Below, piece after piece: positions 2,680 through 7,591 of a stretch of 7,667 nt of DNA; the first letter of the stretch is position 1, and each line of letters starts with the position of its first letter. The notes under the pieces were generated by a model, which was given only the letters and a program-made list of their open reading frames with translations, was not told the DNA's origin and made no database searches. Source of the DNA: an uncultured delta proteobacterium (GTDB lineage: Bacteria; RBG-13-61-14; DRUE01); contig CAIYYW010000080.1 in NCBI GenBank assembly GCA_903930515.1, positions 1-7,667 of the forward strand, read 5' to 3'. The position numbers were made by a program, and so were the translations under genes.

Positions 2680-3995
2680 TCAAGAAGCATCTTCTTTTTT
2701 CACCATCCTGACCGCCTCTTCCCTGGTCTTGATTTTGCCTTCCAGTTGGGCGTCTTCAATGGCAGTGAGGATTTCGCGGAAGATGGGGCCGGGGGCGAGC
2801 CCGAGCCGGATCAGGTCATCGCCGGTGAGCAGGCGTTTGGGCCTGGATTTGAATTTGGCCTGTTCTTTGCGGAATAGGGCCAGGTTTTTTTCACGAACCG
2901 ATAGGTTGACAGGTCGTGATGGCTTCCGACGCAATCAATCCGGTGCAGTTCCAAATGGAGGTCGAAATATTCCAGACTCATAAAGCGTTTGAGGGTGCTC
3001 TGCTTCATCTTGCGCGCGTCAATGAACTTCAGATGCTCCCGGACCAGGGCGACGATGATTTTGACCTGGCGGTTGGAAAACCGGAGGCGCTTGAGGATTT
3101 TTTGGGAGATTTCCGCTCCCAGTGTGGAATGTCCGTTAAAGCGGATCCGGTCCGCGATTTGGAAAGTATCGGGCTTGCCGATGTCGTGGAGCAGAACTCC
3201 CCAGGCCAGTTCCGGGCTGGGCTGTTTCATCAGCTTCAGCATCAGCCGGGTATGCTTGAACACATCTCCTTCGGGATGAAACTGTTTTGGCTGCCTCACC
3301 CCTTTCAGCGCGCTCACTTCCGGGAGGATCGCTTTCAAAAGGCCCAGCCGGTCAAGCAGGTCCAATCCCCGGTCCGGGCGCGGCTGGGTGAAGATGTAAA
3401 CCAGCTCGTCCCGGATCCGCTCCCGGCTCACCTGGTTGATTTCGCCGCAATGCCTTTTGATCGCGGCCGCGGTTTTTTTCTCAATCGGGAAATTGAACCT
3501 TGCGGAAAAACGGACGGCGCGGAGCATCCGGAGCTTGTCTTCATAAAAGCGCTGGTCCGGGTTTCCGATCGCGCGGATGATCCCGGTTTTCAAATCCTTT
3601 TGACCGCCGATGAAGTCCAAAACTTTTTTACCGACCGGGTCGTAGAACATTCCGTTGACGGTGAAATCCCGTCTCCGGGCGTCTTCTTCCGGGCCGGAAA
3701 ATTGCACCTTGCCGGGATGCCTTCCATCCGCGTAATCCGAATCTTTGCGGAAGGTGGCCACCTCATAATTTTTCCCGGCCATCCTCACGATCACCACCCC
3801 GAATTTGGCCCCGACCGGAATGGTTTTCTGGAACAGCCGGATGATCTGCTTAGGTTTGGCATTGGTGGCCACATCCCAGTCCTTGGGCTGGATTCCGAGC
3901 AGGAGGTCCCGCGCGCATCCGCCCACCAGGTATGCCTGGAACTTATGACCCCGCAGGGTCTTGACGATTTTTTTCGCGTTCGCGTCAATGGCCAT
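2680..3995 (-). CDS. cca: CCA tRNA nucleotidyltransferase with HD domain, frameshifted near the 3' end
   Basis: This enzyme adds or repairs the 3' CCA of tRNAs. Class II nucleotidyltransferase motifs are all present: VGGCARDLLLG (24-34), catalytic D39-x-D41 in KDWDVAT, RRRDFTVNGM (107-116), and EDKLRMLRAVRF (152-163), whose E-D-x-x-R is the nucleotide-selecting motif. An HD phosphohydrolase-type domain follows, with H248, H270-D271 and probably D354. ATG 3995 is the first possible start, because the upstream in-frame codons back to the GH2 stop contain no ATG, GTG or TTG. The frame breaks after residue 370 at a run of seven A's (2885-2891 on the plus strand). As sequenced it adds 24 unrelated residues and stops at 2811. 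With one more A the frame continues for 68 residues to the stop at 2680, giving 438 aa. The downstream part (KSRPKRLLTGDDLIRLGL and following) reads as a normal CCA-enzyme C-terminus. The catalytic head is intact either way. The upstream neighbour is the GH2 gene, 42 bp away and in the same frame. Confidence 0.92.
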
Positions 3996-6671: not shown

Positions 6672-6941
6672 TCATTTAATAGATTTTAGAATTTTTAGAG
6701 CCTCCGCCACTTCTCCAGCTTTTCCTTCCGTCAGATGAGAAACAATATACGCCCCTACTCCCAGAATTGCCCGGGTGTTTGTAGAAATGGCGGCTTTGCT
6801 CTTTGGGAAATCTAAATATTCTTTTCCTTGCGGAGCGGCTGAACCTGCATATATGCGGGAAATATCGCCCAAGCTTGACCACCGCCTGAGCGAAGCAAGG
6901 TGTGAAGGGTGTGAAGAGTGCGAAGGGTGGGAGGGGAACAT
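6672..6941 (-). pseudogene. Probable remnant of a type I restriction specificity subunit (HsdS)
   Basis: This 89-codon ORF starts within TAATG, one base overlapping the stop of the IVP gene. Its first 20 residues translate a 9-bp repeat (Ser-His-Pro units). Residues 24-43, LGDISRIYAGSAAPQGKEYL, resemble the start of an HsdS target-recognition domain, and 45-70, with FPKSKAAISTNTRAILGV then AYIVSHL, resembles a later part of the same kind of domain. In a complete protein of that type I would expect roughly 40 residues between them, so an internal deletion is inferred. The tail after SHLTE (73-89) is unrelated and stops early. Alternatively, a GTG at 6882 followed by VKLG would join the recognisable frame if one G of GGGC (CTTGGGCGAT) were removed, another hint of decay. 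A short uncharacterised protein is the alternative. The resemblance is recalled, not searched. Confidence 0.5.
6899..6934. repeat. 9-bp tandem repeat array (four units)
   Basis: On the plus strand the units are GGTGTGAAG, GGTGTGAAG, AGTGCGAAG and GGTGGGAGG. The first two are identical and the others diverge progressively. Nine bases equal three codons, so copy number could change without shifting the frame. In the overlapping reverse ORF they read as Ser-His-Pro/Ser units at its N-terminus. The array sits between the end of the IVP gene and the HsdS-like segment, where a rearrangement junction would be expected. Confidence 0.7.
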
Positions 6942-7471
6942 TATTCTTTTTCCTTTTTTTCGCGCTCTTGTCTCGCGCGGATATTGACTAATTGGGCTTG
7001 TCCGAGGGCCACTCTTTGCTCCTGTTTAAGCTCGGCGGAGAAGCGCTGGGGCCGGGCGAATTTTTCTCCTTGATAGGCTGATTTCTGGAGATGGGCGATC
7101 AGGTTGGAGATCATACCGCTGACCCGGCGGGCGAGGTCATGGAGGCGCTCGTAGTCGGAGGGACTGATATAATTCTGGTCGTGGGCGATTCGGAGTTGGG
7201 CGCGGACTTCACCGGCGGAGCCTTTGGCGTAGAAGAGGAACTGGATAAATTCGGTTTTGGAGCCGCGTTCAAAGCCCTCGGCGATATTGGACATAACGGA
7301 AACCGAGGATCGCCTAATTTGGTCCACCAGGCCGTAATCTCGGGCAAAGTTTTCCGAGCGGGTCAGGGCATAAATGGCATTGGTCAGCTCGGTTGCGCGC
7401 TGATAGATATGCAATTCCTCAAATGATTCCGCGACTTTGTTCCGACCCTTCATACCCTTCTCACTATTCAT
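6941..7471 (-). CDS. Four-helix bundle protein, 23S rRNA intervening-sequence (IVP) family
   Basis: The core matches the IVP/four-helix bundle family, first noticed in intervening sequences inside some 23S rRNA genes but also common as free-standing genes. Taking the Met at 7471 as residue 1 (176 aa), the hallmark stretch is YGLVDQIRRSSVSVMSNIAE (46-65) followed by GFERGSKTEF, then YAKGSAGEVRAQLRIA (81-96). The core runs from about 17 to 130. A charged tail of about 45 residues (131-176, ending REKKEKE) is longer than usual for the family and may be read-through into flanking DNA. ATG 7471 overlaps the stop of the HsdR-like stub (ATGAATAG), suggesting coupling. ATG 7453 lies just after GAGAAGGGT, and the frame is open back to 7525. 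No 23S rRNA sequence surrounds it. Function is unknown; an RNA- or nucleic-acid-related role is speculation. Confidence 0.87.
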   Translation of the reverse strand: MNSEKGMKGRNKVAESFEELHIYQRATELTNAIYALTRSENFARDYGLVDQIRRSSVSVMSNIAEGFERGSKTEFIQFLFYAKGSAGEVRAQLRIAHDQNYISPSDYERLHDLARRVSGMISNLIAHLQKSAYQGEKFARPQRFSAELKQEQRVALGQAQLVNIRARQEREKKEKE

Positions 7472-7562
7472 TCCGCAAACATTCTCTCTTTGGTCTCCAG
7501 CCGCGAGCATGCAAGGCCGGATCAACCAGCTTGGCGCGAGTATCTGATTCGTTATATCCCAT
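7464..7562 (-). pseudogene. Truncated N-terminus of type I restriction endonuclease subunit R (HsdR)
   Basis: The first 22 of these 32 codons read MGYNESDTRAKLVDPALH then ARGW, which closely matches the usual HsdR opening (N-E-x-D-T-R-A-K-L-I-D-P-x-L-x-x-x-G-W). HsdR subunits are about 800-1100 residues, carrying a nuclease and a DEAD-box translocase. Here the resemblance stops at Trp22, ten unrelated residues follow, and a TAG overlaps the IVP start. The ATG at 7562 is preceded by AAGG nine bases upstream and by a strong promoter at the right distance, so this is the real start of a once-complete gene, or now a short leader peptide for the IVP gene. It is too short to be a functional nuclease. 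Confidence 0.72.
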
Positions 7563-7591
7563 TATTTTCAGCCTTGAAGCAGTTGGATAGA

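Follow-up and report, generated by a model that had tools for sequence, protein, structure and literature searches.

A probable decayed type I restriction operon around an intact IVP gene with inverted repeat arms

To our knowledge, IVP/S23 proteins have no known function, although the intervening sequences (IVSs) of rRNA have long been known. Cyanobacteria carry tandem heptanucleotide repeats (STRR; also the P6b stem of the trnL intron), which are degenerate, have a 7-nt period and are able to pair into a stem, and we know of no tie between these repeats and an IVP gene. The 23S IVS of Coxiella burnetii is excised by RNase III and has heptameric repeats before its ORF (PMC4990558), and IVSs with an IVP ORF have been reported from CPR bacteria as well, in genes for 16S and 23S rRNA (PMC11270868). 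The IVP family has a solved structure, the homopentameric ring 2gsc (PMC4990558), and IVP is among the CRISPR-linked genes listed in one figure legend (PMC10910872). In literature of incomplete coverage, we found no paper in which hsd genes are linked to IVP or four-helix-bundle genes, nor one describing repeat arms outside rRNA, and the novelty of the module anatomy outside rRNA is provisional. Here, we describe an IVP gene located between fragments of type I restriction genes. The account that we favour, with a probability of roughly 0.7, combines the decay of a type I restriction operon with an IVS-like IVP module; the operon decay is by itself highly probable, and an IVS-like mode of action of the module stands at about even odds.

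The IVP gene and its place on the contig

The window, by which we mean the whole stretch of 7,667 nucleotides that was analysed, is one whole contig of a fragmented assembly (401 contigs, 93% complete). Leftward from the contig end, its minus strand carries a promoter-like site, a 32-aa ORF, the IVP ORF and an 89-aa ORF (Table 1). The IVP ORF matches PF05635 (23S_rRNA_IVP) with 122.7 bits (cut-off 33.8, E 1e-35, profile positions 1-105 of 106), TIGR02436 with 119.8 bits (cut-off 24) and the PDB entry 2gsc (E 2e-12). Its reading frame is intact, with differences concentrated at third codon positions; an intact frame alone does not prove selection in this lineage. An Rfam search of the window gave no match, and the gene does not lie inside an rRNA gene. 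Like an rRNA IVS, the locus has a sense IVP-family ORF in a transcribed unit, complementary ends able to form a stem and the ORF in the loop. In contrast to rRNA IVSs, for which RNase III cutting is known, the host transcript is here a protein-coding operon, and many IVP loci outside rRNA have longer arms made of degenerate repeat arrays. The gene is also related to bAvd/Avd of diversity-generating retroelements, a family of four-helix bundles, but the match is weak and below both cut-offs (bAvd profile 21.8 bits, cut-off 40; NCBIfam Avd model 19.1, cut-off 80), and no reverse transcriptase occurs among the window proteins scanned.

Elsewhere in the window, the gene for the CCA-adding enzyme (2680-3995, minus strand) has an apparent one-base frameshift at a T7 run near 2885. 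Its frame of 394 aa is followed by a C-terminus that runs on in another frame, and the copy of a congener is a single 451-aa frame (L214 5729-7084); the frameshift is either real decay or else a sequence error.

Table 1. Features of the restriction remnants and the IVP module in the window (descending coordinates)
Feature	Position	Strand	Remarks
Sigma-70-like promoter (predicted), TTGACT-17-TATAAT, upstream of hsdR stub	7620-7592	(-)	11/12 consensus matches; predicted from consensus alone
32-aa ORF	7562-7464	(-)	first 22 codons are the hsdR remnant
hsdR remnant, first 22 codons, MGYNESDTRAKLVDPALHARGW	7562-7497	(-)	matches to L070 and G002 HsdR
hsdR remnant, last 9 codons and stop, ETKERMFAE*	7497-7468	(-)	aligned to the L070 HsdR C-terminus KTKETLFAA*
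IVP / four-helix-bundle gene	7471-6941	(-)	PF05635, TIGR02436; start 7471, or 7453 as in L069
Left arm of IVP module, TGAATAGTGAGAAGGGTATGAAGGG	7470-7446	(-)	inverted partner of 6936-6912
89-aa ORF	6941-6672	(-)	hsdS remnant parts and unmatched tail
Right arm of IVP module	6936-6912	(-)	reverse complement of left arm type
hsdS remnant part 1, LGDISRIYAGSAAPQGKEYLD	6872-6810	(-)	with part 2 matches L071 HsdS, E 2e-9
hsdS remnant part 2, FPKSKAAISTNTRAILGVGAYIVSHL	6809-6732	(-)	joined in frame to part 1 after loss of 47 codons
Tail of 89-aa ORF, TEGKAGEVAEALKILKSIK*	6731-6672	(-)	without HsdS match

Remnants of hsdR and hsdS

An earlier sequence-only reading had described the region as a decayed type I restriction locus housing an IVP gene, and this description holds, with the start of HsdR, the end of HsdR and parts of HsdS flanking the intact IVP gene. 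Residues 1-22 of the 32-aa ORF, read as an HsdR-like N-terminus breaking off at Trp22, align from residue 1 with residues 1-22 of the HsdR at locus L070, from a Verrucomicrobia MAG (59% identity, E 7e-5), and with the HsdR of the order-mate G002 (54%, E 2e-4); the alignment score of 69 exceeds the best of 1000 shuffles (41). The Pfam profile HSDR_N gives 13.5 bits over profile positions 2-26, below its cut-off, and it is the significant direct protein comparison that identifies these residues as the HsdR N-terminus of a type I restriction-modification system. The HsdR on C65 (L006) was considered as parent of the fragment and set aside: its available sequence has no match, and its N-terminus lies off the contig.

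The HsdR-like frame loses its match shortly before the IVP gene, as would be expected if insertion of the module, near codon 22 of hsdR and within or beside hsdS, had itself broken the operon. C-terminal codons of hsdR are, however, found between codon 22 and the IVP gene: the peptide ETKERMFAE*, directly joined to codon 22 and out of frame with it, ranks first among 313 stop-preceding 9-mers in the window when compared with the end of L070 HsdR (score 26, next 12), which in L070 lies shortly 5' of the IVP gene. Since this end survives between codon 22 and the IVP gene, the interior of hsdR appears to be lost through an internal deletion, and the IVP gene stands 3' of the hsdR stop. Insertion at codon 22 would moreover have left the remainder of hsdR beyond the module, where only hsdS sequence occurs, and in L070 the module follows an uninterrupted, full-length hsdR; among the alternatives considered here, it has the smallest chance of being correct. 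Of the two events proposed earlier, deletion is thus the better one. It had been proposed to fuse the hsdR start, the IVP gene and hsdS; the deletion stands in refined form, the IVP gene sitting after the surviving end of hsdR.

On the other side of the IVP gene, two HsdS-like segments with an internal deletion had been proposed, and residues 24-44 and 45-70 of the 89-aa ORF indeed align to two stretches of one HsdS from a Syntrophaceae MAG (L071; E 2e-9). Between these stretches, 47 residues of the L071 HsdS are missing from the window, so an in-frame deletion joined the two hsdS parts. Each part is significant on its own, exceeding 1000 shuffles (69 vs 37 and 94 vs 40). The L071 partner scores 137 bits for PF01420, and the ORF is in this sense a remnant of an HsdS specificity sequence; a Pfam scan of the whole 89-aa ORF gave no match, its last 19 residues do not match HsdS (score 21, shuffles reaching 40) and the hsdS piece had no matches in plasmids. 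Compared with the type I systems (HsdR/HsdM/HsdS), the window shares the HsdR start and end, N-terminal parts of HsdS and the operon order, and differs in that hsdR and hsdS are only stubs and hsdM is not seen, so that the system cannot be active as it is. No hsdM is seen because the contig ends at 7667, 105 bp past the start of the hsdR stub.

The deletions could also be artefacts of metagenome assembly, in which case living cells would have an intact operon and the contig would contain a mis-joined edge piece. The fragments lie less than 1 kb from the contig end, and the frameshift in the CCA-transferase gene makes small sequence errors possible. Against an artefact, two separate clean junctions occur within 800 bp, of which just one preserves the frame, and among the contigs of the genome there is no second copy or intact version of the region, the sole other HsdR contig found carrying a different HsdR; we consider this explanation improbable.

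The same first reading had noted a strong promoter in front of these genes and overlaps between the ORFs, and both are borne out, the promoter as a close consensus match. The IVP ATG (7471) overlaps the stop of the 32-aa ORF by 8 bp and the IVP stop overlaps the ATG of the 89-aa ORF by 1 bp, on the minus strand and roughly where they had been placed; the IVP gene now lies ~120 bp downstream of the old hsdR promoter-like site. The retained promoter-like site and the start/stop overlaps, which suggest translational coupling, would suit short ORFs that are functional as they stand, a trimmed HsdR and mini-HsdS-like peptides forming a small regulatory or anti-restriction unit with the IVP protein. 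However, the relatives found include none with these short ORFs, the start and the end of the hsdR remnant are in different frames and no homologue was found for the tail of the 89-aa ORF, and such a unit is very improbable.

Restriction genes beside IVP genes in relatives and in the survey

Among the three closest IVP relatives, two lie in type I loci (L070 and L071) and the third, L069, does not. The L070 order is hsdR-IVP-hsdS, with an hsdR of 799 aa containing EcoEI_R_C and helicase domains and an hsdS containing PF01420, both full length. In L071, the order is hsdM-IVP-hsdS, the gene 5' of IVP being hsdM and not hsdR. The IVP gene is thereby immediately 5' of hsdS in all three hsd loci with related IVPs (the window, L070 and L071), which could reflect joint transfer; IVP would then be a bystander carried along when the hsd operon was transferred horizontally, and its arms incidental intergenic repeats. 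The different operon order of L071 argues against a bystander, as do the arms described below. The hsdM of L070 (10519-12257) is split into two overlapping frames, and this restriction system may itself be damaged or mis-sequenced.

One genome per species (84,980 species) was scanned with an IVP alignment, which gave 80 loci, the gene calls of this survey being longest-ORF approximations, and PF01420 was searched in all 78 genomes involved. An hsdS adjoins IVP in two of the 80 loci; the other surveyed IVP contigs have no hsdS near IVP, and none of 43 further PF01420 matches in possible coordinate ranges lies on an IVP contig. Comparison within the phylum of the window covered three genomes, and in G001 and G002 the IVP contigs are distinct from those with hsdS or hsdM-like matches. 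By chance, roughly 0.1 hsdS neighbours would be expected in 80 loci (about 120 hsdS genes, some 290 Mb), so the two found are an excess, yet hsd is not the usual home of IVPs. We therefore rejected hsd operons as a general home, and the proposal that a recurrent hsd setting would explain IVP spread is weak, though two of the three closest relatives share that setting. In the congener G001, the matching slot beside a glycoside hydrolase gene is instead occupied by an Eco57I-type restriction-methylase together with a Bro-N gene (L214 1-2865, G001:C170). This position is thus variable in content and open to restriction genes, and it looks like a variable restriction/defence slot.

Repeat arms, empty sites and a proposed module

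The two arms of the window are 25 nt each and identical at 20/25 positions when inverted (p 0.002-0.006), which makes them short and among the weaker ones in the set. MFE and centroid RNA folds both pair them around the IVP frame, giving the complementary stem typical of an IVS, and the total fold energy is ordinary (z 0.24). Arm statistics were obtained for 97 IVP loci outside rRNA (the window, L005, L027-L044 and L069-L148), which were mostly found with one conserved motif and partly share ancestry. An inverted flank score of at least 30 is reached by 67% of these loci and by 2.3% of 532 control genes from the same loci (Mann-Whitney p 1e-42). The IVP flanks have a 7-nt period (z about 17) and consist of degenerate repeats of roughly 7 nt; by their description, they are like the cyanobacterial STRR in being degenerate, 7-nt-periodic and stem-forming. 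The upstream arm is strand-oriented, being richer in G than in C in 67 of 74; GGTT is present in 40 arms and absent from all reversed ones. Similarity between arm motifs tracks similarity between IVP proteins (r 0.42; control flanks r -0.03), also when pairs with similar neighbours are removed (r 0.38, 0/2000 permutations). In a check for 23S rRNA motifs, none of the loci was recognised as lying in 23S rRNA, one isolated 11-nt motif occurring in L092.

In 91% of cases, an IVP gene shares the strand of its upstream neighbour (67% in controls), and in 74% it shares that of both neighbours (44% in controls). On annotated plasmids, IVPs separate cas6 from cas4, cas10 from cmr3 and the gene of an AAA-family (ParA-like) ATPase from parB, and a further location is a tra operon; the IVPs of these cas, parA/parB and tra settings carry arms. 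IVPs occupy operon gaps of many kinds. On cyanobacterial plasmids, armed IVPs are present in type I-D and III-B cas operons and in the gap between a ParA-like ATPase gene and parB (L198 4007-4366; L201 3995-4351; L202 3983-4345).

Two empty sites were found by comparing the congener (G001) with the genome of the window (G000): module L040 of G001 corresponds to C289 of G000 (537 nt vs 48 nt) and module L028 to C200 (551 nt vs 87 nt), and in both cases gene and arms are absent together. Arms that are far commoner and oriented at IVPs compared with control genes, that co-vary with the protein and that disappear with the gene are not what is expected of incidental repeats, and we regard a bystander IVP as unlikely, though somewhat less so than the other alternatives.

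Copies of host sequence flank two of the modules. In L036, the upstream gene is ferredoxin-like, and a 112-bp stretch from its end occurs twice, once immediately outside each arm (6682-6793 and 7463-7574; 96/112 bp). In L070, a copy of the hsdR end lies beyond the IVP gene, just 5' of where hsdS starts (6901-6930 and 7654-7683; 27/30 bp), as expected for module insertion at that place. These host-tail copies hint at how insertion keeps both neighbours whole. A target-site duplication is unlikely as a general rule, as most direct repeats are arm repeats; the clear host-tail copies are those of L036 and L070, and L097 has a direct repeat of 44/45. In the window, no copy of the hsdR tail was found on the far side of IVP, and no target-site duplication is present there. 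No transposase domain was found in the window proteins scanned, IVP being the sole intact ORF of the module. The inverted arms and empty sites are a better hint at the way IVPs spread than the hsd setting is.

In the proposed model of operon decay around an IVS-like module, the ancestral type I operon would have had the order hsdR-IVP-hsdS, as in L070, the IVP module (left arm, gene and right arm) having come between the hsdR end and the hsdS start. Later deletions would have taken most of hsdR (from codon 23 up to roughly the last ten codons), 47 internal codons of hsdS and the remaining hsdS, killing the restriction system while IVP kept its reading frame. The module would resemble a ribosomal intervening sequence within an mRNA: it would be read together with the host operon, in the sense direction, and pairing of the two arms could form a stem around the IVP frame. 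By analogy, we infer that RNase III or a similar double-strand RNase may cut this stem, freeing the IVP message from its neighbours, and that the IVP protein may recognise its own arm repeats. The restriction locus would then be a case of ordinary operon decay, yet one in which a module outlived its host operon.

More tentatively, and with a chance somewhat below even, IVPs outside rRNA could belong to a common but so far little-described type of small mobile module in operon mRNAs, in which inverted arrays of repeats of about 7 nt enclose a gene in sense orientation, and whose protein recognises its own arms and drives or protects their spread. If so, the host operons of these modules would span restriction, CRISPR, partition and metabolism. 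From the arm co-variation, the orientation bias and the empty sites follows the prediction that each IVP would bind the arms flanking its own gene, as opposed to those of a distant locus, and that the host mRNA would be cut at the stem. The source genome of the window has a second IVP gene (L005 143-649, G000:C341), which has TGAGATTT-type repeats on its flanks and is close to a contig end that finishes in a long G run.
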